NCBI GenBank assembly: GCA_947173955.1
Contig: CAMWHE010000001.1
Coordinates: 62,001 to 126,000, forward strand
Origin: an uncultured Bacteroidales bacterium
GTDB lineage: Bacteria > Bacteroidota > Bacteroidia > Bacteroidales > Muribaculaceae
DNA: 64,000 nucleotides
Direction of reading: 5' to 3'
Under the pieces are notes generated by a model that saw only the letters and a list, made by a program, of their open reading frames with translations, was not told where the DNA came from and ran no database searches. Position 1 is the stretch's first letter, and every line of letters begins with the position of its first letter. A program made the position numbers and the translations under genes. Positions 24,977 to 40,956 of this stretch are shown here, one piece after another.

Positions 24977-26410
24977 TTAAAATATAAAGTAGATATATGA
25001 ATTTACGCTCTGTAAAGCATGAAGCGACAGGCGGGTATACGATAGTCTCAGTCCGAGTGTGCCTGCTCCGACATAACGCTCCAGGGCAGCTCCGACTGTC
25101 AGGCCGTTGCAACGTGAAGCAAAATATCCCTCCGCCTCTCCACGTATAAGCCATCGGCCACACACCTTACTTGCCACAACACAAAGCGACGGGAGAGAGT
25201 GTGATGCTTCCGACCTAAGTGCCGGATCTTTCAGCGACTGTGCCGACCGGAGATATGTGTACGCCAGAGAAAAAGCAAGCGTGCCTTCTCCCATGACATA
25301 CTGCAGCGGCAACAATGCCCGCAGCACGGTAGCCCGGGAAGAATAGTTTGGTCTCTCTCCTATTTTCTCATAAGCACTGCCGAGTGCCGAGCCAAAAAGC
25401 ATCTCGATGCCACTACGCATGCGGTGGCTGACAAATACGGCCGGCACTATGCTCCAGCGCTCCGTCAGTCCGATACCCCATGCAGCCTGCAGATTGACGA
25501 TATCAGTATTCGTCTGTCCGAGTGTGATATTATTATAGCTCCTCAGCTGCATCGACACACGGGAGTGGATAAAGTGCGCCGCGACTTTTGGTCCCTCAGA
25601 ACCGGTTGACAGCAACTGCACTGTTCCCGAAAAGGAGAATAGCGAGTGAGCGGCGCTCTTGTTATTGTTTCCTGTAAATCGTCGGTAGAATGTCCCGAGA
25701 CCGGTCAGCGGATATGTCTGAATATCATTCATCGGATTCACGAATTCCACATTCGAAACCTGATGATATGTTCTGATTCCGACACCGACACCGAGCAGAA
25801 ACCGATCTGAAGGCCGGCGCGCTACAGATGTCCTTATGCTCAGATCCGAAACGATGTCATGAATGCGGGGATCGTGTGCCCGATATGCCACTTCCGCACG
25901 ATAGGATGCATCGACACCAAAAGTCCATAGGCTGTATTTACGGCACCATCCGCCGGAAAAGGAATATTTCTGCCGCTGAATGTTTCCGCCGACTGAGTCG
26001 CCCAATACATATGGTGCAAGCAGCTCATAGTCGATAGAGTTGCTCCACTTTGCATCGACGGACCGCATTGTGCTGTAAGAAGCTGTTCCCCAGACTGTAG
26101 AACGGTCTGACAATTTATAGTATGACTCGGCATCCAGCGTAAAGCCGCTTCGGCCGGTACCATTCTCGGATAATATCGGTTGTGACAGAGATAGTCGTGA
26201 ATATCCTGCGCGTACTGATGAGATCGTAACCGAGTCAAACCATTGCATTGTGGCCGGGATGGCTTTAAAGAAACTACGTTCCAGGTCACTGACCGGCCGC
26301 TGGCGGATCTCCAGAGCGGCGAGAGACAAGGGGTCTGCCGCAGCGGACGTGAAAGTCGCTGCAGCAGATACTAAAACACTAAACAATATTACCCTCCTGA
26401 GAAAGTTCAT
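24977..26410 (-). CDS. DUF6850-like outer-membrane beta-barrel protein
   Basis: 477 residues. A signal peptide (cleavage near residue 24, after TFTSAAA) is followed by strands of alternating aromatic and small residues across the whole length (FTLDAESYYKLSDRSTVWG, WSIVPAVFVSHRMRSG, GTLGLRLSYTRLSLHAL), which predicts an outer-membrane barrel. Its place between a DUF4876 lipoprotein and an ABC transporter matches the DUF6850 family as I know it; the family name is a recognition, not a search result. It overlaps the DUF4876 stop by 4 bp. It may be the outer-membrane partner of the receptor or transporter. Confidence 0.72.
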   Translation of the reverse strand: MNFLRRVILFSVLVSAAATFTSAAADPLSLAALEIRQRPVSDLERSFFKAIPATMQWFDSVTISSVRAGYSRLSLSQPILSENGTGRSGFTLDAESYYKLSDRSTVWGTASYSTMRSVDAKWSNSIDYELLAPYVLGDSVGGNIQRQKYSFSGGWCRKYSLWTFGVDASYRAEVAYRAHDPRIHDIVSDLSIRTSVARRPSDRFLLGVGVGIRTYHQVSNVEFVNPMNDIQTYPLTGLGTFYRRFTGNNNKSAAHSLFSFSGTVQLLSTGSEGPKVAAHFIHSRVSMQLRSYNNITLGQTNTDIVNLQAAWGIGLTERWSIVPAVFVSHRMRSGIEMLFGSALGSAYEKIGERPNYSSRATVLRALLPLQYVMGEGTLAFSLAYTYLRSAQSLKDPALRSEASHSLPSLCVVASKVCGRWLIRGEAEGYFASRCNGLTVGAALERYVGAGTLGLRLSYTRLSLHALQSVNSYIYFIF

Positions 26411-27612
26411 TTCACAGATTTTACTTCAAAATCGCGGGCTGAGTCGTCGGTATCCATCAGCACGACATTACCGGCAGGCGATATGCCAGACTCGCGGCGG
26501 GCGAACATCTTGCCGAAACGGTTCTTGTCGGAGTTCTTATCGCTGATGGCAGAGTAGCTCATGTCGACTGAGGAGTCAAGAGAGGAGATAGTGAATACTT
26601 CGGTCGGACATAAGTTGACGCCATCGATAATCCATGCCAGAGGTATGCGGTAGCACTTGTTGCCGGCCATTTCCTTACCTGTGACAGATGACACATAGGT
26701 ATAATCTCCGACATAGCCTGCAAGGAATGTCTCTGTCGTCATACCTTCGGGGAAGCGGACAAGCGCATACGAACGGTTGCACTGTTGCGACGGAAGCCAG
26801 ATTGTGGCTGAATAAGAAAACCATTTGTCAAGATTCGGAACATCGGGATTGTCAGTATCACGCACGCTGCCGGTAGTGACTTCATCATACCATTCGAAGT
26901 CGGCATCGCGGTGATCGAGCGCTCCGGCTACCTGCTCGTCCCAGTCTAGCGCCTGATCGACAATCTTGATGGAGTGACCGGGAAGAATGGGAACATCGTG
27001 ACCCGTACCGGGTATAACGTAAACCGTCTGGGCGAGGAAGTTGGCATTACGCTGAGCCTCAGGCGTCACGATCGTATTATTATCAGTATTGGTCAGCTTG
27101 CTTTCTACGATCGCAAGTCCGTCGGCATACTGAGTCTCATCCGTATTGTTATAGATACGGAAATAGGAGTCGTACAGTCCGCTTGTACCTTTCGCATTAA
27201 GTGAGCCTGTGACGAATATCTCACTGAATACAAGCAAATTGTCGGGATTATAGAAAAACCAGTTAAGGCTGAGAGATGATGTGGTCGAGGTTATTTCCAC
27301 CTGATTGCCTACGGTGCGGAGCATACGTTTCACTCCGTCAGCCATGACTGTCATCGTGCCCTCATAGCTGTATGTTCCGGCGGCAACGCGGGGAGCTGCT
27401 GCGACGGGTAATTCCACTACTGTCACAGATCCGGTGTTAAGCTCGGTAAGGGTAAGCTTCCCGCTTTCTATCGCATATGTGCCCATATCTGAAGGCATTT
27501 CATAACCGAAATTGACATCATAGGTCGGGATCACATCGTCATTGCTGCAGGCGGCAAGCATTCCGGCTATCAGGCATCCTAAAAAAAGTAATTTAAATGG
27601 TTTCATTTGCAT
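26407..27612 (-). CDS. DUF4876-like lipoprotein
   Basis: 401 residues. Type II signal peptide with lipobox LAACSND (Cys near residue 22). The body has an N-terminal beta domain (VTVVELPVAAAPRVAAGTYS) and then a larger domain with LLVFSEIFVTGSLN and YDSYFRIYNNTDETQYADGL, resembling the lamin-tail-like repeat of DUF4876. Such lipoproteins usually lie on the outer membrane beside a TonB-dependent receptor and may capture the ligand. The start at 27612 gives MQMKPFK; the next Met (27606) is equally possible. It lies 5 bp downstream of the receptor gene. Confidence 0.78.
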   Translation of the reverse strand: MQMKPFKLLFLGCLIAGMLAACSNDDVIPTYDVNFGYEMPSDMGTYAIESGKLTLTELNTGSVTVVELPVAAAPRVAAGTYSYEGTMTVMADGVKRMLRTVGNQVEITSTTSSLSLNWFFYNPDNLLVFSEIFVTGSLNAKGTSGLYDSYFRIYNNTDETQYADGLAIVESKLTNTDNNTIVTPEAQRNANFLAQTVYVIPGTGHDVPILPGHSIKIVDQALDWDEQVAGALDHRDADFEWYDEVTTGSVRDTDNPDVPNLDKWFSYSATIWLPSQQCNRSYALVRFPEGMTTETFLAGYVGDYTYVSSVTGKEMAGNKCYRIPLAWIIDGVNLCPTEVFTISSLDSSVDMSYSAISDKNSDKNRFGKMFARRESGISPAGNVVLMDTDDSARDFEVKSVK

Positions 27613-27617
27613 ATAAT

Positions 27618-30173
27618 TTAGATTTTAAAATTGATTTCCATTCCGAAATATGGCGATGAATACCGTCTGACGGTAACTCCGTATTCCTTATATGACGGCG
27701 CTATGTAGAATAGACGGTTGACATAGAGCGCGACCCCTACCCGACTGTGCCAGAATGTCTTGGTCGCCTTGAAATTAAAATTGAATTCCGGCGGTACAGT
27801 GTGCGAATCAAAACTGCTGGATGCAAAGGTTCTGACAAGCTGGCGCAGGTAAGGGTCGGTCATGCATGACTCCGTGTATTGACAGACCTCTCCGTCGGGG
27901 GGCATGTAATGCGTAGGTATGCCGTCGCGGAAAAGAGTACGTCTCGACGTGAACCACATAGCCTGCACGGCCATCGAGAAGCGTAGACCGAGCGACTCTA
28001 TATCTGTATCAAACATCACATTGGTGTTAAAACTCTTATATTCGCTACCGTCAGTATCATCATAAAGTCCGATATACTGAAGTTCATTGCCGTTTACAAT
28101 GATTGATGGCTTATACCAGAGAGGCTGACTGTTGTTGTTGACCGTGCGGAAATATGCGCCGTTGACAGTGAATCGGGTCTTCAGGCTCGTAATCCGCCGG
28201 CTCTGAAAGGAATATTCCACACCTTCCTTAGTCGTAGAACTGCCATTGGTAACGCTTGATCTGACTGCCTGGTAGCCGACTGATGTAAACGGAAGTTCAT
28301 CGATGGCGGGCGCATGTCCCGTCATATAAGGATCATATGTGGAGGCATCGTAGCGGCGGTAGGTATAGCGATGTACATCGCCCGTATGGCGGAACCCGTC
28401 ATTCATGGTCTCTTTGAAGAGCGACACCGACAGACGATTGCCGCGATAAGACAGATCGGCTCTTATCTCGCGTTTTAAATTACGTGCCGCGAGCAGATCA
28501 TAGTTGGTAAGATCTTCTACATAGGTCATGACATTCATAACGCGATATTCTGGCTCGTTATGAAAATAGTTAAGCTGTTCGAAATCGGTGTAACAGAGAT
28601 TAGGGTAAAGGAACGACGCCACGGGCATCTTTGTCTGGAGACCAACTCCTATATTTAATGACGGGACGAGCATCTCCCCCGCTATCTCCACACGCGGCAT
28701 AGTCCATGTCAGCGTAGCACGGGGATCAAGATAAGGTTTAGACGAGAGGGCATATCTGCTGTCAAGATGCAAGAGCCCGGTTTCGCGCAGGCCGATGACA
28801 GCCTCCAGTGTCTGCTCGCCTGCCCGCCATATATTGCGGCTCTCGATGTAGGCCGAGAGCTGATGCATGGCCGGGATATCGCTGAATGCCCTCGGACGGT
28901 CGGCGACAGAGGCCGTTATAGGCCGTTCGAGATCATAGACATTGCCACGCCCGTAATTCTTGTTCATGCTCCATTCTATACCGCCGCGAAGTGTTGAAAT
29001 GACGTTACCGATATCAAACCGCAGGTCAGCACTTCCCTTGAGAAAGACCGATAGCGGCGAACCCTCGACATCCAGTTTTGCAAGATAAAGCAAAGGAAGA
29101 TAGCCGACATAGTTGCTTCCGGGCGTAAGGGAGACCGGCATAAGCATAACGCGAGAAGAAGCCACATGCCGCTCCTGCGACAGGTGTTCCGAAGAGTATG
29201 AGATGCCCGATGTGAGATACACCCCTTTAAGCGGCGAAGCGACAACCGGATTGACTGACAACGTATTGTCCCACTTGAAAGTGTGATTGCGCGTAGCAAA
29301 GAGATCGATTGTGTTGTTGACCGCAAGATCGGGATCATTGTTGTCAGTCTCAAACGTGGCCGAATAAGTAACAGCGGAATTCCACTCAACTCGCAAGACG
29401 GTAGAATCAAAGCGCTTGTTGGAGCGCAGGGAGGCATCGACCCGTTTATAGTTTTCGCGTGAATTACGGGGGTCAATTCGTGCGTCGAGGTATCCGGCGC
29501 CAATATTTAGCGTCCAGTCGCGTCCAGGTATTGCAAAGCCTTTACCGATATAGAACAGTTGGCTTTTTGTGTCAGCCTTGAAACGTGCTTCAAGCTTGGA
29601 GACACCACGTTTACGCTTAATCTTCACAAGCCCTGACGTCAGTTCGCCATACTCGGCGGAAGCGATACCGCGCACAATCTCTACCTCGGCGATGTCATCA
29701 GTGGAAATAGCGCGCATATCTACTCCGCGACCAACCGATGAGTGACCGGGGTGATTGGTATCGGGAGTTGTCTGCATCGTAGAAGCAGTATTGACCGGTA
29801 CACCGTCCACGACGAATGATGTACCTAGAGCCGATGTCATATAATCATCGTCGGAATCCGACATACCTGCCGCCTGCCGTAGGGAAATTGTATTTACACT
29901 CCCCATTTTTGGATCACGTGTTACCCCGCCTGGAAGCAGTTCCAGCAGGTCGGAGAAACTTGAAGGCTGAAGATGCTGCATGGCTGTCGTGTCTATCAGC
30001 GACGACGCGTACGGCGTACGCCCTTCGCGTGCAGTGACTACGACTTCAGACAACCGAACCGACGAATCACTGACCGATACTCTAACAGAGTCGGCAGACT
30101 CCTCGCTCCGGGCAAAAGATCCTACAGCGAAAACTATAAGCAGACTAAGACTATATCGGGAAAAAATGTGCAT
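27618..30173 (-). CDS. TonB-dependent outer-membrane receptor
   Basis: 851 residues. After a signal peptide (~22 residues) there is a TonB-box-like EVVVTA at 43-48, then the plug domain (FSDLLELLPGG, TSFVVDGVPVNT, IAEVEIVRGIASAEYGELTS) and a long 22-strand-type barrel ending YFGMEINFKI. There is no N-terminal carboxypeptidase-like domain and no SusD partner, so it is not a SusC polysaccharide receptor. Such receptors take up iron complexes, cobalamin, peptides or other scarce ligands using TonB energy. It leads the six-gene minus-strand cluster. Ligand unknown. Confidence 0.92.
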   Translation of the reverse strand: MHIFSRYSLSLLIVFAVGSFARSEESADSVRVSVSDSSVRLSEVVVTAREGRTPYASSLIDTTAMQHLQPSSFSDLLELLPGGVTRDPKMGSVNTISLRQAAGMSDSDDDYMTSALGTSFVVDGVPVNTASTMQTTPDTNHPGHSSVGRGVDMRAISTDDIAEVEIVRGIASAEYGELTSGLVKIKRKRGVSKLEARFKADTKSQLFYIGKGFAIPGRDWTLNIGAGYLDARIDPRNSRENYKRVDASLRSNKRFDSTVLRVEWNSAVTYSATFETDNNDPDLAVNNTIDLFATRNHTFKWDNTLSVNPVVASPLKGVYLTSGISYSSEHLSQERHVASSRVMLMPVSLTPGSNYVGYLPLLYLAKLDVEGSPLSVFLKGSADLRFDIGNVISTLRGGIEWSMNKNYGRGNVYDLERPITASVADRPRAFSDIPAMHQLSAYIESRNIWRAGEQTLEAVIGLRETGLLHLDSRYALSSKPYLDPRATLTWTMPRVEIAGEMLVPSLNIGVGLQTKMPVASFLYPNLCYTDFEQLNYFHNEPEYRVMNVMTYVEDLTNYDLLAARNLKREIRADLSYRGNRLSVSLFKETMNDGFRHTGDVHRYTYRRYDASTYDPYMTGHAPAIDELPFTSVGYQAVRSSVTNGSSTTKEGVEYSFQSRRITSLKTRFTVNGAYFRTVNNNSQPLWYKPSIIVNGNELQYIGLYDDTDGSEYKSFNTNVMFDTDIESLGLRFSMAVQAMWFTSRRTLFRDGIPTHYMPPDGEVCQYTESCMTDPYLRQLVRTFASSSFDSHTVPPEFNFNFKATKTFWHSRVGVALYVNRLFYIAPSYKEYGVTVRRYSSPYFGMEINFKI

Positions 30174-30193
30174 TTACGGTTGGATTTACGGTG

Positions 30194-30201
30194 CAAAATT
30201 A
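30194..30201 (-). promoter_or_regulatory. -7 box of TonB/ABC cluster
   Basis: On the minus strand TAATTTTG, a full consensus match, lies 20 bp upstream of the receptor ATG. A -33-like TTTC (30221-30224) is 19 bp further upstream. I see no Fur-like or other recognised operator. Confidence 0.58.
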
Positions 30202-30239
30202 CCGTACATCCTCCTACCGCGAAATACCCTAAATGTATG

Positions 30240-30275
30240 AAAAAATGCCTTGCCGGAGTGTGTTCCCGACAAGGC
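30240..30275 (-). terminator. Rho-independent terminator of ychF
   Basis: Read on the minus strand, a 10-bp stem (30266-30275 with 30247-30256, one G-U pair) with a 9-nt loop is followed by a run of six T. It lies 31 bp after the ychF stop and separates ychF from the receptor promoter. Confidence 0.85.
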
Positions 30276-30305
30276 AAAATACTCTATTTTCAGTATGGAC
30301 TGCGA

Positions 30306-31409
30306 TCAGACATTGAAGCGGAAGTGCATGATGTCGCCGTCCTGGACTACATACTCCTTGCCTTCCACGCCAAGCTTACCGGCCTCTTTAACAGCTGTTT
30401 CTCCACCAAGACTGACATAATCATCATACTTGATGACTTCAGCGCGGATAAATCCTTTCTCGAAGTCTGTGTGGATTATACCGGCACACTGTGGCGCCTT
30501 GCTTCCGCGCATGAATGTCCATGCCCTTACCTCGTCGGAGCCGGCAGTGAAATAGGTCTGGAGATCAAGGAGCTTATAGGCCGCGCGTATCAGTCGGGCG
30601 ACGCCGCTCTCCTCAAGGCCGATCTCAGCGAGGAATTCCTGCCGCTCTTCCCATGTGTCAAGCTCGGCGATCTCACTCTCGGTCTGGGCTGCTACAATCA
30701 TAAGGTCAGCATCCTCCCCCTCGATAGCCTTGCGTACGGCATCAACATACTTGTTGCCGCTGACGGCTGAAGCATCGTCTACATTGCAGACATAAAGCAC
30801 AGGCTTATTGGTAAGGAGGAACAGCTCTCTGGCATATTTTTCTTCGTCGACAGTGTCAAACTTCACTGAACGTGCAGGCTTGCCCTGATCGAAAGCCTCC
30901 TTATAGCGACGGAGCACCTCATACTGCAGCTTGGCAGTCTTGTCGCCACCGGTCTGAGCCTGTTTCTGTACCTTGGCCATACGGCTTTCCACTGTCTCCA
31001 TATCCTTGAGCATCAACTCATAGTCAATTATCTCCTTGTCGCGGACAGGGTCGACAGAGCCATCCACGTGGGTTATATTGTCATTGTCAAAGCAGCGGAG
31101 GACGTGCAGGATGGCATCCGTCTCGCGGATATTGGCAAGAAACTTGTTGCCGAGACCTTCACCTTTGCTCGCACCCTTGACGAGTCCCGCGATATCGACT
31201 ATCTCGACCGTAGCCGGGACGACACTTCTGGGCTGGCACATTTCAACAAGCTTGGTCAGGCGATCATCGGGTACGGTGATTACACCTACGTTAGGTTCTA
31301 TGGTGCAGAAAGGAAAATTGGCCGACTGAGCCTTGGCATTCGAGAGGCAATTGAAGAGAGTCGACTTACCTACGTTGGGCAAGCCAACAATACCACATTG
31401 TAGTGACAT
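30306..31409 (-). CDS. ychF: Obg-family ATPase YchF
   Basis: 367 residues. The P-loop [12 protein letters not shown] (residues ~8-19) is followed by FCTIEPNVG (switch I), [10 protein letters not shown] (G3) and [12 protein letters not shown] in place of the usual NKxD, the change that gives YchF/OLA1 proteins preference for ATP. A coiled-coil helical arm and the C-terminal TGS domain ([20 protein letters not shown]) complete the fold. It associates with ribosomes and is linked to stress and redox control of translation in other bacteria. Confidence 0.96.
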
Positions 31410-31476
31410 ATCTGATGAGGCGTGTTATATAATAAATTATGTGTGTGAGCTGACGATGTAACGAGCTCTTTGAGTG

Positions 31477-31484
31477 CAAAATTA
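31477..31484 (-). promoter_or_regulatory. -7 box of ychF
   Basis: TAATTTTG on the minus strand, full consensus, 67 bp upstream of the ychF ATG, with a TTTC element (31505-31508) 20 bp upstream in the -33 position. Confidence 0.55.
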
Positions 31485-31515
31485 TAGAAAATTCCTCAAA
31501 TTCAGAAATTATTTG

Positions 31516-31523
31516 TAAGTTTG
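31516..31523 (+). promoter_or_regulatory. -7 box of ArgC-like gene
   Basis: TAAGTTTG matches the consensus and lies 25 bp upstream of the ATG at 31549. It is too close to the alternative TTG at 31528 for that to be a likely start, so it supports the ATG. Confidence 0.5.
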
Positions 31524-31548
31524 TAGCTTGAAACCGAACACAAAACTA

Positions 31549-32481
31549 ATGATAAAAGTAGGCATAACTGGTTGCGAGACAAAAGTGGCAGGCGAAATAA
31601 TCCGGCTACTTATCAATCATCCGGACGTCGATCTCCGATGGGTGCAGAGCGATGTGCATGAAGGACTTAAAGTAAGTGACATTCATCAGGGCCTGATAGG
31701 CGAATGTGATCTGGAGCTGCAGCGCGACGCCGACTGGGAGGCCATCGACGTAGTATTCAACTGTCGCCATACCGGCAACACACGCCAGTTTATGGAGAAT
31801 GCGGCAATACCGGAAACTGTCAAAATCATCGATCTATCGGGCGACTATCGTAAGAATTACGAAGATACCGGATATGTATATGGTCTTCCGGAACTCAACC
31901 GCAAACTGATGGTCAGAGGAGCTACCAAGGTGGCAAATCCGGGAGCTTTCGCTACCGCTATCGAGCTTGCCCTGCTTCCTCTCGCCAAGAATCTTCTGCT
32001 CAACAGCCCCATACACGTGGCCGCGGTGTCGGGAGATCCGACTTTAGCCGACAATATCAGGCTATACAAGCCTCTGCAACACAGCCATGCCGATGAAGTA
32101 GCCACTACCCTGCGGTCGCTGCAGAATTCATTTAACTCGCCGGTCTACCTTGTACCGATGCTCGGCAGCTTCTCGCGCGGACTCATAGCGGCTGTCTATC
32201 TTGACTGTCCGCTCTCGCTTGAGGAAATCCGCAAGCTGTATGACAACTATTATGACGATCACGGATTCACATTCGTAGCCGACAAACAAGTCGATCTGAA
32301 GGATGTAGCCAATACCAACAAATGTATCCTCCATCTACAGAAGGACGGTAACCGTCTGCTTGTCACATCCGTAATCGACAGTATGCTCAAAGGATCTGCC
32401 GGCACAGCCGTTCACAACATGAACCTGCTTTTCGGCCTTCAGGAGCGCACCGGGCTGGCACTTAAACCGTCTGCGCTATGA
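31549..32481 (+). CDS. ArgC-like reductase homolog lacking catalytic cysteine
   Basis: 310 residues from the ATG at 31549. The whole length resembles N-acetyl-gamma-glutamyl-phosphate reductase: EIIRLLINHPDV, IIDLSGDYR, YGLPELNR (111-118), IYKPF-like RLYKPLQHSH and NMNLLFGLQERTGL at the end. In ArgC the catalytic cysteine sits in NPGC; here it reads NPGAFATA (130-137), with Ala133 encoded by GCT at 31945-31947. The NADPH glycine motif is also changed: GITGCET where the third glycine is expected. The histidine of the HxH motif (178-180) is kept. It is therefore probably not an active reductase by the known mechanism. No other arginine genes are near. Its stop overlaps the next start by 4 bp. 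Confidence 0.82.
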   Translation: MIKVGITGCETKVAGEIIRLLINHPDVDLRWVQSDVHEGLKVSDIHQGLIGECDLELQRDADWEAIDVVFNCRHTGNTRQFMENAAIPETVKIIDLSGDYRKNYEDTGYVYGLPELNRKLMVRGATKVANPGAFATAIELALLPLAKNLLLNSPIHVAAVSGDPTLADNIRLYKPLQHSHADEVATTLRSLQNSFNSPVYLVPMLGSFSRGLIAAVYLDCPLSLEEIRKLYDNYYDDHGFTFVADKQVDLKDVANTNKCILHLQKDGNRLLVTSVIDSMLKGSAGTAVHNMNLLFGLQERTGLALKPSAL

Positions 32482-33878
32482 AGAAATTACTGTTCGCCGC
32501 TTTGATGTCGATGGCAGCCGGTCCGGCTGTGTCGGGACAGACTCTGGCCGAGGCTCAGGCTCTGGTCGACGCAGGCGACTATAAGGCAGCCACACCCCTG
32601 CTTGAAGCTCTATCGGCCAAAGAACCCAAGAACGGCAAGGTAAGCCTCGCGCTCGGCCAATGCTACCTTCATCAGGGAAGCGACTCTCTGGCGACTGCCG
32701 AACTGACGAAAGCCAAGGCGCGCGGACAGCATGAGGCTGCCGTCGGACTGGCGTCGTTAGCTTTAAAAGAATATCGTGTGGATGACGCCGACGAACTGCT
32801 TGAAACCTATCGTAAAACGCTAAAAAAGAACCGTAAGACTCCGTCCGAAGCTGCCGAAGAAGTGTCGTCGCAGATCGATCGCATACGCAATATGCTTATG
32901 CGGGTCGAGCAGATCGAGGTCTTCGACAGCATCAACGTTCCGGCGGCTGATTTCTTCAAATACTACCGGCTGTCGCCCGAAAGCGGCTCGATCAATTCCC
33001 CTGCTATCCTTCCCCGGATCTTTGCCTGTGGCAAACCGACCGTAGTCTATGAACCGGAAAGCCGCAGCGAAATGATGTGGGCGGCTCCCTCAGAAGACGG
33101 CAGCCTGGAATTAGTCAGGTCAGTAGCTCTTTATGGCGACGAATGGGATCAGCCTGTATCAGTCGGAGCTCATCTCGGCGAAGGCGGAGATGCCAACTAT
33201 CCGTTCCTGATGTCTGACGGCATCACGCTCTACTATGCCAACAACGGCGAAAACTCGCTCGGCGGCTATGACATCTTCATCACCCGCAGCAGCGACAGCG
33301 AGTTTCTCCAGCCGCAGAACCTCGGAATGCCATACAACTCCCCATACAATGACTATATGCTTGCCATCGACGAGAATACAGGCATAGGCTGGTGGGCTAC
33401 CGACCGCAATCAGCTACCAGACTCGGTGACTATATATCTGTTTGTTCCCTCGGAGGTCAGACGCAATATCGATGTCAATGCTCCCGACCTCAGGCAGCGA
33501 GCCCTGCTGAGCTCGATTGCACTTACTCAGACCAAAGGAGCCGACTACGACAGACTCCGGTCGGCGCTCGACCGGATAACCAGCTCTGCATCTTCGCTTG
33601 CACGCCAATGTACATTCTATATGCCCGACGGGCGGTTAATCACCCGCATCGAGCAGCTGTCCAACCGCGACGCCCGCGCTGCCCTCCGGCAGTATATCGA
33701 CCTTCAGGCCGGAATAGATGCCGACGCCGCCGAACTCAGCAGGCTCCGCCAAGCCTATGCTGACGGCGACTCCAATGTCAGGATCGACATCATATCAATC
33801 GAAAACCGCGCCACCGGCGACCGCGAAGCCCTCAAACGCGCGGCCAACGAAGTTATAGCCTGCGAGCTTGGAGAGTAA
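32478..33878 (+). CDS. Exported TPR and PD40-like repeat protein
   Basis: 466 residues. A signal peptide (cleavage near residue 20, AVSGQT) is followed by tetratricopeptide-like helices (ALVDAGDYKAATPLLEALS, LALGQCYLHQGSDSLATAEL) to about residue 120. Next come WD40-like PD40 beta-propeller blades (YPFLMSDGITLYYANN, GGYDIFITRSSD, GWWATDRNQLPDSVTIYLF), and a helical end. This architecture is known from Bacteroidetes envelope proteins linked to OmpA-like and secretion-associated complexes; no OmpA domain is present here. It overlaps the ArgC-like gene by 4 bp, so the two are probably co-translated. Confidence 0.8.
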   Translation: MKKLLFAALMSMAAGPAVSGQTLAEAQALVDAGDYKAATPLLEALSAKEPKNGKVSLALGQCYLHQGSDSLATAELTKAKARGQHEAAVGLASLALKEYRVDDADELLETYRKTLKKNRKTPSEAAEEVSSQIDRIRNMLMRVEQIEVFDSINVPAADFFKYYRLSPESGSINSPAILPRIFACGKPTVVYEPESRSEMMWAAPSEDGSLELVRSVALYGDEWDQPVSVGAHLGEGGDANYPFLMSDGITLYYANNGENSLGGYDIFITRSSDSEFLQPQNLGMPYNSPYNDYMLAIDENTGIGWWATDRNQLPDSVTIYLFVPSEVRRNIDVNAPDLRQRALLSSIALTQTKGADYDRLRSALDRITSSASSLARQCTFYMPDGRLITRIEQLSNRDARAALRQYIDLQAGIDADAAELSRLRQAYADGDSNVRIDIISIENRATGDREALKRAANEVIACELGE

Positions 33879-33923
33879 TCCCACTATATCATACTTATAT
33901 AAACCATTTATCATTATCATTAA

Positions 33924-35372
33924 ATGACACTGTTTCTTGCCTCGATAGGCATACTTATTGCAGGTTATTTCCTATATGGCCTGCTGATAGAAAAGATATT
34001 CGGTGTAGACCCCAAGAATCTGACGCCGGCATATTCAAGGCGCGACGATATCGACTACACTCCGATGTCGACCTGGAAGGTCTTCCTGATCCAGTTTCTC
34101 AACATAGCCGGACTGGGGCCTATATTCGGTGCCATCATGGGCGTGATGTTCGGACCGGCAGCCTTTCTGTGGATCGTGTTCGGCACAATCCTTGCCGGGG
34201 GCGTCCACGATTTCATCTCGGCCATGATATCGATGCGTGCAGGCGGCGTCTCGTTACCGGAGATTGTCGGTCATGAGCTTGGCGGCACGGTCAAGCAAGT
34301 GATGAGAATATTCTCTATCCTGCTGCTGGTGCTTGTGGGGGCGGTATTCGTAGTCAATCCCGCAGATATACTTGCCGGAATGACTCCCGACTATATGGAC
34401 AGACTTGTATGGATAATAATCATATTCGCCTATTACATCCTCGCCACGCTGCTCCCGATCGACAAACTGATAGGAAACCTCTACCCTGTCTTCGGTCTGA
34501 CCCTGCTGTTTATGGCAGCCGGACTCCTTGTTATTCTTATCTTCGGGGATGTCACGATCCCTGACGGTCTCGGCGAAGGCCTTCACTCGCGTCACGGAGA
34601 TGGCAGCCCGATCTTCCCGATGATGTTCGTCTCTATAGCCTGCGGCGCGATATCCGGCTTCCACGCCACACAGTCGCCGATGATGGTGCGATGCCTTAAG
34701 AATGAGAAGTATGCGCGCCCGATCTTCTACGGAGCAATGGTAGCCGAAGGCCTTGTGGCACTTATCTGGGCAGCTGCCGCCATAGCTTTCACCGGAGGCT
34801 ATCAGCAGCTCTTTGACGCCATACCGCAAGGAGGTACCCCATCACCGCTTGTGAAAGAAATATCCATCACATGGCTCGGAAGCGTCGGAGGCGTACTTGC
34901 CCTGATCGGAGTAATAGCCGCCCCTATCACTACGGGCGACACGGCTCTGCGCAGCGCACGGCTTATTGCTGCCGATTTCCTGAAATTCGATCAGAAAAAA
35001 CTTCTGCGCCGCCTTCTGCTTTCACTTCCGATCTTCATCCTTGCAGGTGTGGTGATGCTTATCAATTTCAAGATCCTGTGGCGCTACTTCGCGTGGTGCA
35101 ATCAGACGCTGGCCGTCTTTACCCTATGGGCTGCTACCGTCTATCTCGCCCGACACAAAAAGGCATATATCGTCACGTTGCTGCCCGCGATGTTCATGAG
35201 CGCCGTCTCTGTGAGTTATCTGCTCTGCGCCGAACGCCCGGAAGGACTCGGACTGTCTGTCGGCATCTCCGTCGCCATCGGTTCTGCCGCGGCTGTAGCG
35301 CTGACATTCGTGGTGCTGATGTATATTCATCGCATCAACAGCGGAAAGCTCAAACGTAAATTCGACTATTAA
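33924..35372 (+). CDS. Carbon starvation protein CstA family transporter
   Basis: 482 residues with about a dozen membrane helices. CstA-family landmarks: QFLNIAGLGPIFGAIMG, GGVHDFISAMISMRAGG, ACGAISGFHATQSPMMVRCL, and APITTGDTALRSARLIAAD. The family (CstA, BtsT) imports peptides or pyruvate at the inner membrane. This is the short form without the long C-terminal extension of E. coli CstA. The substrate cannot be assigned. The FadL-type porin starts 15 bp downstream. Confidence 0.9.
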   Translation: MTLFLASIGILIAGYFLYGLLIEKIFGVDPKNLTPAYSRRDDIDYTPMSTWKVFLIQFLNIAGLGPIFGAIMGVMFGPAAFLWIVFGTILAGGVHDFISAMISMRAGGVSLPEIVGHELGGTVKQVMRIFSILLLVLVGAVFVVNPADILAGMTPDYMDRLVWIIIIFAYYILATLLPIDKLIGNLYPVFGLTLLFMAAGLLVILIFGDVTIPDGLGEGLHSRHGDGSPIFPMMFVSIACGAISGFHATQSPMMVRCLKNEKYARPIFYGAMVAEGLVALIWAAAAIAFTGGYQQLFDAIPQGGTPSPLVKEISITWLGSVGGVLALIGVIAAPITTGDTALRSARLIAADFLKFDQKKLLRRLLLSLPIFILAGVVMLINFKILWRYFAWCNQTLAVFTLWAATVYLARHKKAYIVTLLPAMFMSAVSVSYLLCAERPEGLGLSVGISVAIGSAAAVALTFVVLMYIHRINSGKLKRKFDY

Positions 35373-35387
35373 TCCATTTATTCCAAT

Positions 35388-36758
35388 ATGGTACGTAAAT
35401 CAATCTTAGCCCTCGCAGCAGCCGCATCGGTCTTGTCGGCTTCTGCCGAAGGTTATCAGGTAAATACACTCAGTGCGCGCCAGCTCGGCATGGGTCACAC
35501 CGGCACAGGACAGCATCTCGGTGGCGAAAGTATGTTCTTTAACCCGGCCGGTCTCGGATTCCTTGACAAACAGGTAGAAGTAGGCGGATCATTCACAGGC
35601 ATTTTCGCCACAGCAAAAGCGACCCTCGCAGACGGTATGACCTACAAAACCGCCAACGACCCCTCGACTCCGATCATGGTCAACGCCGCATTCTCAATAA
35701 ACGACAATCTCAAGGCCGGACTTTCATTCTACACGCCATACGGGAGCGGCATCAACTGGACCGACAACTGGCCAGGCGCAATCATGAGCCAGAGCGTCAG
35801 TCTCAAAGTATTCACTCTGCAGCCCACATTCTCATGGCGCATCTCCGACCGAGTGTCGGTAGGTGCCGGTCTGACTATTAGCTGGGGTTCGGTCAATCTC
35901 CACAAGGGGCTAGTCGTACCCTCTACGGCCGACATAATGCTCGGAGCACTCGCTTCAGCCGGCCTGCTCACCGACCCTCTTTATTATAATGGGGTGATGC
36001 CGGCCTCGATCGCACTGGAAGGGAAGTCGTCCGTAGCCTGCGGAGTCAATGTAGGAGTGATGTATGATATCACTGACCGGCTGACCGTCGGAGCCTCATT
36101 CCGCTCTAAAGTAAAGATGAGTGTGGATGCTGGTCTGGCAGCTATCAACTATTCCGACATTCAGGCCGAGCAGCTACTTGCAGAGCTGAACGTCCTGAAC
36201 TCGACAAATTTCGCTGCTTCGATGCCCTGCCCCTATGTGTTTTCAATGGGACTCTCATGGAAACCGGCCTCACGGCTTACGCTTGCAGCGGATGCACGTC
36301 TGACCGGATGGAATGCCTACAAGTCGCTCGATATTTCATTTCTTGACGACCGCTGCGCGGCCTATAACCAGCATATCGAAAAGAACTACAGGAACTGCTG
36401 GAGTGTGTCAGTCGGTGGCGAGTATGCTGTCACCGGGCGCTTTGACGCCCGCATAGGCCTGATGGTAGATACATCTCCCATCTCCCACACTCACTACAAC
36501 CCGGAGACTCCAGGCATGACGAAACTTGAACCCACGCTCGGATTCACCTTCCGTCCGCTCGAAAATTTCTCCATCGACTGTGGCATGATGTATGTGGCCG
36601 GTCTTGGGGTCAACGGCGCATCATGCTCTTATCCGGACCTTCTTGCCGCCAAGATCAACCAGAACTTCGGCACATCGCTCCCCATGACCGGGACATTTAC
36701 CGCCGACTATAAGGTACACGCATTCATTCCGTCAATCGGACTTCGCTATGCATTTTAA
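35388..36758 (+). CDS. OMPP1/FadL/TodX family outer-membrane transporter
   Basis: 456 residues. Signal peptide (~20 residues, SVLSASA), then the FadL N-terminal hatch region (QLGMGHTGTGQHLGGESMFF, NPAGL) and a long barrel with VSVGAGLTISWGSV, LTVGASFRSKVKMSV and a C-terminal aromatic residue (FIPSIGLRYAF). FadL proteins carry hydrophobic compounds such as long-chain fatty acids across the outer membrane. The substrate here is unknown. The gene lies between cstA and a PHP phosphatase with short gaps. Confidence 0.9.
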   Translation: MVRKSILALAAAASVLSASAEGYQVNTLSARQLGMGHTGTGQHLGGESMFFNPAGLGFLDKQVEVGGSFTGIFATAKATLADGMTYKTANDPSTPIMVNAAFSINDNLKAGLSFYTPYGSGINWTDNWPGAIMSQSVSLKVFTLQPTFSWRISDRVSVGAGLTISWGSVNLHKGLVVPSTADIMLGALASAGLLTDPLYYNGVMPASIALEGKSSVACGVNVGVMYDITDRLTVGASFRSKVKMSVDAGLAAINYSDIQAEQLLAELNVLNSTNFAASMPCPYVFSMGLSWKPASRLTLAADARLTGWNAYKSLDISFLDDRCAAYNQHIEKNYRNCWSVSVGGEYAVTGRFDARIGLMVDTSPISHTHYNPETPGMTKLEPTLGFTFRPLENFSIDCGMMYVAGLGVNGASCSYPDLLAAKINQNFGTSLPMTGTFTADYKVHAFIPSIGLRYAF

Positions 36759-36775
36759 AAGACTGATATAAACAT

Positions 36776-37606
36776 ATGGTCGACTTCCTGTCTTTCTTAG
36801 GCGGCAGCCGCCGCTACACGCTGCACAGTCACACCGAGTTCTGCGACGGCAGAGCCCAGATGGAGGCTTTTGCCCGTCAGGCTGTCGCCGACAGCTTCAC
36901 CCACTACGGATTCACCCCCCACTCTCCTATACCGATCGTCTCGCCATGCAATATGCTCCGCGACAATGTGGAACGCTATCTGGCCGAAGTGGAGCGGATA
37001 CGCCGCGACCATGCCGGTAAGGGGGTGACTTTCCTCGCGGGGATGGAGATCGACTATCTGGGCGACCACTGGGGACCAGCCTCTGACTATTTCCGGGAGC
37101 TGCCGCTTGACTACAGTATAGGCTCAGTACACTTCATACCCTCGCAGGACGGCGTGCCGGTCGATATCGACGGCCGCTTCGAGTCGTTCAGACGCAAGAT
37201 GACCGAACACTTCCGCGACGATATCCGCTATGTGGTGGAAAAATTCTACGAGCAATCGATCCGTATGGTCGAGGCAGGAGGCTTCGACATCCTCGGCCAC
37301 CTCGACAAAGTGGGACACAACTCCAGCCACTATTCACCCGGCATCGAGAGCGAAAGCTGGTATCAGGCGCTTGCCGACGAACTCGCCGACAAGGTGATAG
37401 ACTGCGGGGTCACAGTCGAACTCAACACCAAGGCACGCCGCGAGCACGGCAGATTCTTTCCATCGGAGCGGTTACTACGACGCCTCGTAGCCGTCGGTGT
37501 CCCGATAATAGTGAACAGCGACGCCCACGTTCCGGCTCTGATAGACGCATCCCGCCAGGAAGCATTCGACCTTCTTGACTCGATAAGGAGAGAAATTACG
37601 AAATAA
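36776..37606 (+). CDS. PHP-family histidinol-phosphatase-like protein
   Basis: 276 residues. The PHP metal-binding motifs are visible: TLHSHTEFCDGRAQM (first HxH and D), YGFTPHSP, FLAGMEIDYL (Glu), IGSVHFIP, DILGHLDKV and the C-terminal IIVNSDAHVP. HisJ/HisK-type enzymes dephosphorylate L-histidinol phosphate in histidine synthesis. No other his genes are present, so another phosphoester substrate remains possible. It starts 17 bp after the FadL-type gene. Confidence 0.85.
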   Translation: MVDFLSFLGGSRRYTLHSHTEFCDGRAQMEAFARQAVADSFTHYGFTPHSPIPIVSPCNMLRDNVERYLAEVERIRRDHAGKGVTFLAGMEIDYLGDHWGPASDYFRELPLDYSIGSVHFIPSQDGVPVDIDGRFESFRRKMTEHFRDDIRYVVEKFYEQSIRMVEAGGFDILGHLDKVGHNSSHYSPGIESESWYQALADELADKVIDCGVTVELNTKARREHGRFFPSERLLRRLVAVGVPIIVNSDAHVPALIDASRQEAFDLLDSIRREITK

Positions 37607-37672
37607 AACAAGTTTTTGAAAAAATTGACGGGAGTTGTTGCAAAACGCTCCCGTCGCCGTCTTATAAGTGAA

Positions 37673-38155
37673 ATGAATCAGGATTTCCTCACATCGGCTT
37701 TCAGGCGCCTGCACTCCCGACTTCTTGCCGGGTCGCGCCGGCTTATAGGCGACGACGAGGCAGCCGACGCCCTTCAGGAGGCTTTTGTAAGGCTGTGGGG
37801 CAGGCGCACCGACATCCGCGAAAAGTCGCAAGCCGAGGGAATGCTGATCACGACCGTCCGCCGCCTGACTATCGACAGTCTGAGACGCACGGGGAAGCTG
37901 ACCTCGAAGGAGGAGATACCCGAAGCAGATCCGCCGCCGGAAGATACCCTGCCTGACCTCTACGAACAGGTCAGCGCAATCATAGCAGAGAAACTCAGCG
38001 GGCGCGACCGCGAGATCCTGCTGAGACGAGACCGCGACGGATGGGAATTTGATGAGATCGCCGAGCATTTCGGCCTGAGCGAAGGAAACGTGAGACTGAT
38101 AGTCTCGCGGGCTCGAAAAACAGTAAGAACTATTTACACAAACAGACATGGATAA
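37673..38155 (+). CDS. ECF-type RNA polymerase sigma factor
   Basis: 160 residues from the ATG at 37673; an in-frame TTG at 37616 would add 19 residues of non-homologous basic sequence. Region 2 is visible as RRLIGDDEAADALQEAFVRL (binding to core and -10), and region 4 as a helix-turn-helix (FDEIAEHFGLSEGNVRLIVS). It heads a five-gene operon with a single-pass membrane protein, a secreted protein and two barrel proteins, an arrangement that suggests an envelope-responsive sigma/anti-sigma pair. It overlaps the next gene by 8 bp. Confidence 0.88.
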   Translation: MNQDFLTSAFRRLHSRLLAGSRRLIGDDEAADALQEAFVRLWGRRTDIREKSQAEGMLITTVRRLTIDSLRRTGKLTSKEEIPEADPPPEDTLPDLYEQVSAIIAEKLSGRDREILLRRDRDGWEFDEIAEHFGLSEGNVRLIVSRARKTVRTIYTNRHG

Positions 38156-38639
38156 CAACACCAACCGACTTGAAAAGCTCATAGAGCGCTACTTCGATGC
38201 CATGACAACTATCGAGGAGGAACGCGAGCTCGCCCGGCTGCTGGCAGGCACTAACGCCACCTCGGAGCTGATCGAACAGGCGCGGGCGGTGATGGGCTAC
38301 GCTGCGGCGTCCCGTAAAGTCATGACTCGGCAGCGGCGGTCGCCCGGACTTCGCTTCGCCCGCAAAGCCATGCAGATAGCGGCATCGCTGGCTCTCGTCG
38401 TGGGAGGGTCGGCTCTCGCCATAAAATACAGCTCCCAGAGAGCCGAAGCGGCGCCACGCTGTGTGGCCTATGTCAACTCCGTGCGAATCACTGATGAAGC
38501 AGCGATCAGACAGATGGCCCTCGAAGAGCTACAGGCTGCCATGTCCGTCTCCATAGAGTTTGATAATCATAACAAGCAGATGATGACCGATGTGACCAAG
38601 GCATCAAATGAAATCACAGAAATAATTCATAACTTATAG
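38148..38639 (+). CDS. Single-pass membrane protein, possible anti-sigma factor
   Basis: 163 residues. A cytoplasmic N-terminal ~70 residues (LIERYFDAMTTIEEERELAR resembles the zinc-less anti-sigma N terminus), one transmembrane helix (about 75-93, MQIAASLALVVGGSALAIKY) and a ~70-residue periplasmic end. The overlap with the sigma gene suggests coupled, stoichiometric synthesis. Function is inferred from position and topology; no anti-sigma HxxxCxxC motif is seen. Confidence 0.65.
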   Translation: MDNNTNRLEKLIERYFDAMTTIEEERELARLLAGTNATSELIEQARAVMGYAAASRKVMTRQRRSPGLRFARKAMQIAASLALVVGGSALAIKYSSQRAEAAPRCVAYVNSVRITDEAAIRQMALEELQAAMSVSIEFDNHNKQMMTDVTKASNEITEIIHNL

Positions 38640-38641
38640 AT

Positions 38642-39127
38642 ATGAGACTTCGCATTTTACTACCGCTAATCTGTCTGACAGCGATCTGTCATCTGGCCGC
38701 ATCGGCTCAGAAAAAGCTGAATACCGACGAATTCTTCACGATGAAATTTCAGGACAAGGAGGGCGTGACCGCTGTAGAAATCCAGGGAAATGTATTCGCG
38801 GAATGGGGAAACATGATCACATTGTTCAAGAGCCTTAAAGTAAGCAATCCGAAGGATATAGAGAGAATCGAAAAGGCCGTCAAGCAGGATGTAGCCAACG
38901 CTACCGCGCGCACATCGTCGATGAGCAACGGCCGGCTTCTCTACATCTGGTATGCGCTACCGCCAGTCCAAAAGGATATCAACAGGTATATAATATATGT
39001 GCACCGGCCGGACAATGCGGCCACGCTTATCTATATGGAAGGAAAACTCATACCCCAGCAATTCAAAAAATACATCTTAGAGAAATATGCGCCCGTGCAG
39101 GATCTGACTTCAGAAATCATCTATTAA
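38642..39127 (+). CDS. Secreted DUF4252-like protein
   Basis: 161 residues. Signal peptide ends near residue 22 (HLAASAQ). The mature protein (KLNTDEFFTMKFQDKEGVTA, then WGNMITLFKSLKVSNPKDIE, and IYVHRPDNAATLIYMEGKL) is compact alpha/beta and resembles small Bacteroidetes proteins found behind ECF sigma factors, such as DUF4252 or DUF6108; I am not certain which. It lies 2 bp after the membrane protein gene and abuts the next start. Confidence 0.6.
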   Translation: MRLRILLPLICLTAICHLAASAQKKLNTDEFFTMKFQDKEGVTAVEIQGNVFAEWGNMITLFKSLKVSNPKDIERIEKAVKQDVANATARTSSMSNGRLLYIWYALPPVQKDINRYIIYVHRPDNAATLIYMEGKLIPQQFKKYILEKYAPVQDLTSEIIY

Positions 39128-40060
39128 ATGAATCTCAGTATGAAACGAAATTTATCCATAGGACTTGCCCTACTGGCAGCCGCTACGGCATCAGCTCAAA
39201 GTGAACATCTTACAGCTGACACGCTTAAGACCATATCCAACGCAGAAAACATCACAATCACACGGTCGGGCAATCAGACCGTAATCCGCGCCCTTCAGCC
39301 TAACGAGAATAAAGGCGGAGGAACCCTATTTACCTATACGGTTACCGAAGAGCCCGATTCAATGCTTGACAGACTGACCCAGCTTGAATCCATCCAGGAC
39401 GAGAAGAATGCAGGAGAGATATTCCGGCTCCCGTTTGCTACTGACAAGGGGCGCCACACTGACAAGCCTTTCAAGACTTCGAGGTTCATCACCGGCGCGA
39501 GATATATCTACTGGGGATGGAATTTCAACTACGACTACAAAGGTGGTACAAAAAACTGCTTTGAATACAGCATCGCCGACCTGATCGGCGTCGAATGGGA
39601 GACATCCCGCCACACGCGCCTCGGTTTCGGACTCGGATTCGGCTTGCAGCGCGTCACCACTGCCGACCACCGGCTGTTTGCCACCGAAGGGGATGTCCTC
39701 ACCATCGAAGGGCTGCCAGAAGGAGTGGATCATGAGTTCTCACGTCTGGACAACTGGCGCATCCAGCTCCCTCTCTACTGGCGTCAGCGGCTCACAGGAA
39801 GCTTCGGCATCTCGCTCGCCGCCATAGCCAACTTCAATGTCTACTCATCGGCAAAAAACCGTTTCAGCATAGACAAGACTACTTACACTGAGACTATCAC
39901 CGGTCTGCGCCAGCGGCTGCTGACCTGCGACGTGATGGCGACAGTAGGATTTGTCGATGCTATCGGAGTCTATGTGAAATGGAGTCCCGCATCAACCTTC
40001 AGCCGTGAATACGGCCCGTCGTTCAAAACTATATCTGTAGGTATCACCCTTAACTTCTAA
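39128..40060 (+). CDS. Outer-membrane beta-barrel protein, sigma operon
   Basis: 310 residues. Met5 (ATG at 39140, MKRNLSIGLALLAAATASAQ) gives the cleaner signal peptide and may be the true start. After a ~100-residue N-terminal region come strands typical of a porin-like barrel (TRLGFGLGFGLQRVTT, GSFGISLAAIANFNVYS, VDAIGVYVKWSPAS) and a terminal F (ISVGITLNF). It is paralogous to the next gene: the last ~60 residues of both share a CD(V/I)-x-A-x(9)-Y-V-(K/R)-x-S-P pattern. Confidence 0.72.
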   Translation: MNLSMKRNLSIGLALLAAATASAQSEHLTADTLKTISNAENITITRSGNQTVIRALQPNENKGGGTLFTYTVTEEPDSMLDRLTQLESIQDEKNAGEIFRLPFATDKGRHTDKPFKTSRFITGARYIYWGWNFNYDYKGGTKNCFEYSIADLIGVEWETSRHTRLGFGLGFGLQRVTTADHRLFATEGDVLTIEGLPEGVDHEFSRLDNWRIQLPLYWRQRLTGSFGISLAAIANFNVYSSAKNRFSIDKTTYTETITGLRQRLLTCDVMATVGFVDAIGVYVKWSPASTFSREYGPSFKTISVGITLNF

Positions 40061-40065
40061 ACGTC

Positions 40066-40956
40066 ATGAAACCGCATTATATATCGCTTGCATTAGCAAT
40101 CCTGCCTATCGCTGCATCTGCCGCCGGCAAAGAGTCAGCCGACACTCTCATCTCCGTAGAGAAACCCTCCACTCTCGTAATTACTGAAAATGCGCAAGGC
40201 ATCTCGGTATCTATCCTGCCACATGACGGAGAGACGCCGTCAACACTCGACATAGCTGAATATCGCAGTGGTCAGGCCATCTCGACCGAACAGCAGAACT
40301 CGTCATATTTTACACTCAATGCCGGTGATGGCGGCGCGGTATTTAAAACGTCTTCACACTGGAACGTTGTCTCCAACGGCCTGATTATAGGGCTCGTCAA
40401 TCCGATGGGACAGCCTGAGAACTTCGGACTGCAATGGGCCAAATCATTTGAAATAGGCTGGCTCAACACCCTCGCCGTCAGATACAGCCATCGCGGAGCA
40501 GCACTTTCGCTCGGTATCGGCCTGGACTGGCGTAACTACAAGACCACAACAACCGGCCATCGCTATATGCCGGATTCAGCAACGGGTATCGCAACCGCTC
40601 CCTATCCCGAAGGAGCTACCCACGGTTCATCGCGCATCAAGATATTCAGCCTCGGATTCCCGCTGCTCTATACACAGAAATTCGGTAAATCGGGAATGGC
40701 CGTCACTGCCGGTGCGATTCTCAACCTTAACACCCACGGATCGCTTCTAACGAAATATACCGACTCCAAGGGACATGAATGGGAGGAGTATTCCACGGCC
40801 ATCAGCCGCCGGCGCGTCAGCTGCGACATTTTCGGCGCACTGACATTCTACAAAGGGTGCGGACTCTATGTGCGCTACTCGCCGCAATCCGTGCTGAAAG
40901 GACCGGGAGTGCCCGACTTTCATCCCCTGTCAGTTGGCTTGACGCTCTTCCTCTGA
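40066..40956 (+). CDS. Outer-membrane beta-barrel protein, paralog
   Basis: 296 residues. Signal peptide ends near residue 19 ([10 protein letters not shown]). As in the preceding gene, an N-terminal region of ~100 residues is followed by barrel strands ([43 protein letters not shown]) and an aromatic-containing C terminus (LSVGLTLFL). It is the last gene of the sigma-factor operon. The duplicated barrels may be targets or sensors of the ECF pathway. No terminator of the classical type is obvious downstream. Confidence 0.72.

Follow-up and report, generated by a model that had tools for sequence, protein, structure and literature searches.

Enzyme folds are known to serve non-catalytic tasks, as seen generally in moonlighting enzymes and pseudoenzymes. 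Among the systems closest to the gene analysed here, the M. tuberculosis ArgC has a substrate pocket lined by Ser186, Gly187, Tyr211 and His217 (PMC8220418), and LysY has been solved as the C148A variant with NADP+ and LysW-gamma-aminoadipic acid bound (PDB 5ein, entry title). In the openly accessible literature searched, no earlier description of an ArgC-derived pseudoenzyme was found. We analysed a degenerate argC from an uncultured bacterium of the Muribaculaceae, within a window (the whole stretch of DNA studied) of 64,000 nucleotides. The relevant features, in window positions, are as follows.

31549..32481, forward strand: degenerate type-1 ArgC (pseudo-ArgC, P0001), 310 amino acids, assigned from sequence, Pfam/NCBIfam and predicted structure
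31561..31581, forward strand: former NADP-binding GxxGxxG, residues 5-11, now GITGCET
31900..31902, forward strand: Arg118, kept in 134/134 degenerate family proteins
31945..31947, forward strand: GCT, Ala133 at the catalytic cysteine position
32032..32055, forward strand: site of the deleted active-site loop, residues 162-169 (GDPTLADN); the canonical loop is ~13 residues longer
32080..32088, forward strand: HxH, His178-Ser-His180, kept in the genus of P0001 and lost in most other degenerate members
32260..32262, forward strand: His238, kept in 134/134 degenerate family proteins, mostly Ala in type-2 canonical ArgC
32413..32415, forward strand: His289, kept in 134/134 degenerate family proteins, mostly Gln in type-2 canonical ArgC
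32416..32439, forward strand: C-terminal NMNLLFGL segment, residues 290-297
32443..32445, forward strand: Glu299, kept in 134/134 degenerate family proteins
30306..31409, reverse strand: ychF-like GTPase, divergent neighbour
32478..33878, forward strand: exported TPR protein, overlapping pseudo-argC by ATGA; cotranscription of the two is likely, in this genus alone

Pseudo-argC starts at the ATG at 31549, the start used family-wide, rather than at the TTG 21 bases upstream proposed in the ORF listing, and its frame is open over 310 residues, as the preliminary description had stated. Other residue-level claims of that description were borne out as well: the codon at 31945-31947 is GCT, so that P0001 reads NPGAFAT for the NPGCFAT of ArgC and Ala133 replaces the thioester cysteine; the NADP motif is G5-I-T-G8-C-E-T11, with threonine in place of the third glycine; and both H178-S-H180 and the NMNLLFGL segment from N290 are kept. 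None of the five cysteines of P0001 (C9, C53, C72, C220 and C259) lies close to 133, and thus no other cysteine takes the catalytic position. The claim of a full-length fold stands in that the fold is complete, but ~13 residues are missing from the active site. A further change, which the preliminary description had not noted, is apparent in alignment with relatives: the loop TGSTGAG-VKPS-TSHFSWR between the cysteine and HxH is deleted to SGDPTLA--DN; this loop is found in every canonical relative (as a 22-residue stretch in 66/66 canonical sequences compared), and by motif position the deletion would cover the equivalents of M. tuberculosis Ser186 and Gly187.

Upstream of the gene, TAAGTTTG at 31516-31523 of the window, 25 bases before the pseudo-argC ATG, agrees with the -7 promoter box of Bacteroidetes, TAnnTTTG, and no -33 box accompanies it at the customary distance. 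A search of 26000-40000 against Rfam gave no match, and an RNA-level feature at pseudo-argC was rejected on this result and because selection acts on the protein.

P0001 belongs to the semialdehyde dehydrogenase superfamily, both domains scoring above their gathering thresholds (PF01118, 63.1 bits versus 26; PF22698, 93.3 bits versus 27). Against the NCBIfam argC model TIGR01850 it reaches 199.3 bits, below the curated cut-off of 233.6, and advanced degenerate members reach 61-157 bits. An AlphaFold2 model built with a 40-sequence alignment (pLDDT 92, pTM 0.91) superposes on solved ArgC structures in VIA-align with a Z score of 40 and rmsd of 1.8 over 303-306 residues (for 1vkn, Z 40.1 and rmsd 1.8 over 303 residues); other ArgC and LysY score 38-40, and ASADH or GAPDH-like proteins ~30 or less. 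The matches beyond ArgC were confined to ASADH, malonyl-CoA reductase and GAPDH-like relatives, which is what this fold would lead one to expect. Of the hallmarks of an ArgC enzyme, P0001 has the overall fold and HxH and lacks the NPGC cysteine, GxxGxxG and the pocket loop. Judged from the model, the fold is that of ArgC; the chemistry is probably gone.

The preliminary description had proposed inspecting close relatives for Ala133, searching the genome for a second, canonical argC and measuring dN/dS. Ala133 and the deleted loop are present in all orthologues of the genus read at this site (8/8 genomes, G000-G007, host included); because all genus relatives read there have Ala, a sequencing error at Ala133 is ruled out. 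Neither a second argC nor argG, argH, argB or argR was found in the host genome, which is 97% complete, or in G007, the genome most closely related to it. A second, canonical ArgC, ~46% identical to P0001, occurs in five genomes of the genus (G001 and G003-G006), lying in G001, G004 and G005 within a complete operon, GNAT-argG-argC-argD-carbamoyltransferase-argB-argE-argH.

We surveyed 197 Muribaculaceae genomes of at least 90% completeness, most of them MAGs. Two very different queries gave an ArgC-like match in 194; the other three (90-94% complete) remained empty with a degenerate-family profile, an absence that missing contigs could explain. Full-length argG is present in 96 genomes, three further weak partial matches being discounted. 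Among the 101 genomes lacking it, 98 keep an ArgC-like gene, and the 81 of these in which it was read carry only degenerate copies. The 96 argG-positive genomes comprise 43 with canonical copies only, 11 in which both kinds were read and 42 in which only a degenerate copy was read; since 40 of these 42 have a second, unread ArgC match, a degenerate copy is accompanied by another match in 51 genomes. G096 and G211 have argG (truncated in G211) and a degenerate ArgC match only, possibly reflecting citrulline-to-arginine conversion alone, or missing contigs. Among the family genomes read, G024 (L047, G024:C118) alone combines a type-2 (Q289) canonical ArgC, at an argR-argG-argC locus, with the absence of a degenerate copy; the retained function is therefore not absolutely universal.

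Outside the family, argG-less genomes of other Bacteroidales families (G037, G039, G041, G045, G048, G051, G053, G056 and G060) yielded no ArgC, profile search included, and retention after pathway loss is therefore a trait of Muribaculaceae. In the non-Muribaculaceae family f22, one of nine genomes (G057) has a degenerate copy. This copy (L049, G057:C14:2343-3272) is part of a degenerate argR-argC* pair, and its presence reflects either transfer or independent loss.

The 169 distinct ArgC-like sequences comprise 86 canonical and 82 degenerate ones, plus one aspartate-semialdehyde dehydrogenase that was left out. In degenerate copies the cysteine position holds P, A, S, N, E, T, G, D, V, H or K, or C with HxH then lost; HxH is lost in 124 of 139 degenerate sequences, and most members have a scrambled or deleted NADP motif and active-site loop. 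The loss is graded. Duncaniella-type copies keep the cysteine, but have HQQ and NPGCxAM; copies of genus g20 combine NPG[SA]FAT with HQH; and in those of g4, g17 and g30 almost no catalytic feature remains. In Duncaniella (L134 / L025, G013:C70), the HQQ copy sits beside a canonical arg operon and, at 246.9 bits, scores above the NCBIfam argC cut-off, so that it would be named argC automatically. R118, H238, H289 and E299 are each kept in 134/134 degenerate family proteins at a mean pairwise identity of 39%, whereas in type-2 canonical ArgC position 118 is Arg in only half and positions 238 and 289 are mostly Ala and Gln. Only H238, H289 and V122 differ clearly from other ArgC; E115, P144, D277, G282, E299, G302 and L303 are common ArgC residues, which may do no more than hold the fold.

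Degenerate ArgC is under purifying selection as strong as that on canonical ArgC. The median dN/dS of all unsaturated pairs is 0.147 for degenerate and 0.131 for canonical copies, dS being near saturation for many of the pairs compared. P0001 and the G007 copy differ by a dN of 0.049, giving a dN/dS of ~0.02 with dS near saturation, and against this nearest relative the value for pseudo-argC lies below those of the neighbouring TPR, cstA and php genes. Parsimony, applied to a tree from which the catalytic columns had been omitted, places at least five changes from canonical to degenerate, and the starred branches alone force three; as this is a quick tree with long branches, the count is approximate. 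The separate cases are L023 (with canonical sisters), L128, L028 with L235, L099, and a main group of 77. By this count, catalysis has disappeared on a minimum of three occasions and probably on five, with the frames still open.

The ancestral gene order in the family would be gltX-waaA-argR-GNAT-argG-argC, sometimes followed by argD. Degenerate copies are found at gltX-(waaA)-argC* or argR-argC*, the intervening genes having been deleted, and in the genus of P0001 pseudo-argC has ychF on one side and, on the other, the exported TPR gene, beyond which come cstA, fadL and the PHP gene. The TPR gene occurs family-wide yet adjoins argC only in this genus, for which reason it was rejected as an ancient partner. 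Operon hitch-hiking was likewise rejected, since the neighbour differs between lineages that keep the gene, being gltX/waaA, argR/ssb, ychF or the TPR gene, and none of these can by itself account for the retention. At 37616-40956 of the window, a few kilobases downstream of pseudo-argC, lies an ECF sigma/anti-sigma-like module with two tandem paralogues, and in G010 (L075:13144-15862) homologous module genes stand directly beside gltX-waaA-argC*, a placement that hints at old synteny.

Our best explanation, to which we give a probability of roughly two in three (0.66), is that the gene encodes a pseudoenzyme, which forms no thioester with N-acyl-glutamyl phosphate, probably does not bind NADP in the normal way and is kept for a non-catalytic role. 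We favour it because the gene persists where the arginine pathway has disappeared or a second arg operon has assumed its role, and P0001 combines lost catalytic residues with purifying selection, the pairing by which we recognise a pseudoenzyme. The preliminary description had suggested a pseudoenzyme and had judged the gene not to be simply decaying; purifying selection, genus-wide fixation and near-universal retention in the family support both. From retention we infer a non-catalytic function, and we regard pseudo-ArgC as a family-wide pseudoenzyme whose function was probably already present in the ancestral enzyme. The ancestral type-1 ArgC of Muribaculaceae would have had a second job besides the reductase step; wherever arginine synthesis was lost or passed to a second arg operon, only catalysis would have been released, and the second job would have kept the gene. 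With moderate confidence, pseudo-ArgC may act as an oligomer that binds a partner or small ligand or serves as a scaffold for it, the candidate surface comprising the invariant helix face E115/R118/V122, the loop D237-H238-F240, the helix face H289/N292/L293 and the tail E299-L303. We put at even odds the broader proposal that type-1 ArgC of Muribaculaceae is a two-function core protein, whose non-catalytic function secures retention of the gene in nearly all species and was exposed in parallel at each pathway loss or replacement.

The main rival to the pseudoenzyme reading is an enzyme with new chemistry, in which a second site made of R118, E115, H238, D277, H289 and E299 would catalyse a different reaction. 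Such a site would account for the unusually many invariant polar residues in an otherwise fast-evolving protein, including two invariant histidines absent from other ArgC. However, many invariant residues are ordinary structural residues of ArgC, no pathway gene consistently travels with pseudo-argC, and the NADP motif and active-site loop are disrupted in most members. This suggestion of the preliminary description is the less likely one, and we consider it unlikely. That description had also proposed a regulator, which is possible in a general sense. Its ArgR-dependent form, a co-regulator or arginine sensor working with this repressor, would fit the finding that in roughly half of the neighbourhoods read, some of them in arginine-pathway-less genomes, argR is the gene immediately upstream of the degenerate copy. 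This adjacency also follows from deletion between argR and argC in the ancestral argR-GNAT-argG-argC, and argR is absent from G007, G010, G013, G014, G022, G026 and G028, all of which keep the degenerate gene. Because the host genome, too, has none, the ArgR-dependent form is argued against: ArgR was rejected as an obligatory partner, and a co-regulator of this kind appears improbable.

The many genomes with both a canonical and a degenerate copy might instead suggest an inactive partner subunit modulating canonical ArgC or another arginine enzyme. Such a role seems highly improbable given that the degenerate gene is kept equally well without canonical ArgC and without argG, the host genome lacking argH and argB as well. 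Least credible is a decaying relic on its way to loss, for which the lost active-site residues and strong sequence divergence (down to 34-39% identity) could be cited. It is contradicted already by retention and the dN/dS data, on which a pseudogene was rejected: the gene is under purifying selection, an ArgC-like gene persists in 194/197 genomes across deep divergence with invariant positions, and other Bacteroidales families that lack the pathway yielded no counterpart.

In the dominant mouse-gut family, this gene is likely labelled as the reductase of arginine biosynthesis, while in most sampled genomes it is apparently not that enzyme; automated argC calls would therefore mislead predictions of auxotrophy. 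That catalysis disappeared in parallel while the protein was kept argues strongly, on comparative grounds, that a central metabolic enzyme has a hidden second function, and the graded series from Duncaniella through g20 and the genus of P0001 to g30 shows which residues that function needs. If type-1 ArgC does have two functions, the series would offer a natural separation of function for a moonlighting metabolic enzyme.

Compared with known systems, pseudo-ArgC is closest to ArgC itself (TIGR01850; 1vkn, 1xyg, 7nni), with which it has the whole-length fold (Z 40) and the N- and C-terminal motifs in common; the genes are homologous, and in several lineages pseudo-argC is still at the ancestral arg locus. 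Unlike ArgC, it has no catalytic cysteine, its loop is deleted, its NADP motif is altered, it scores below the argC cut-off and its host genome lacks argG, argH and argB. LysY C148A carries a laboratory Cys-to-Ala change at the position equivalent to Ala133, but there the cysteine alone was changed, whereas in pseudo-ArgC the loop and NADP motif are changed as well. Pseudo-ArgC would resemble moonlighting or regulatory metabolic enzymes, and pseudoenzymes, in that the fold of an enzyme persists to serve a task other than catalysis.
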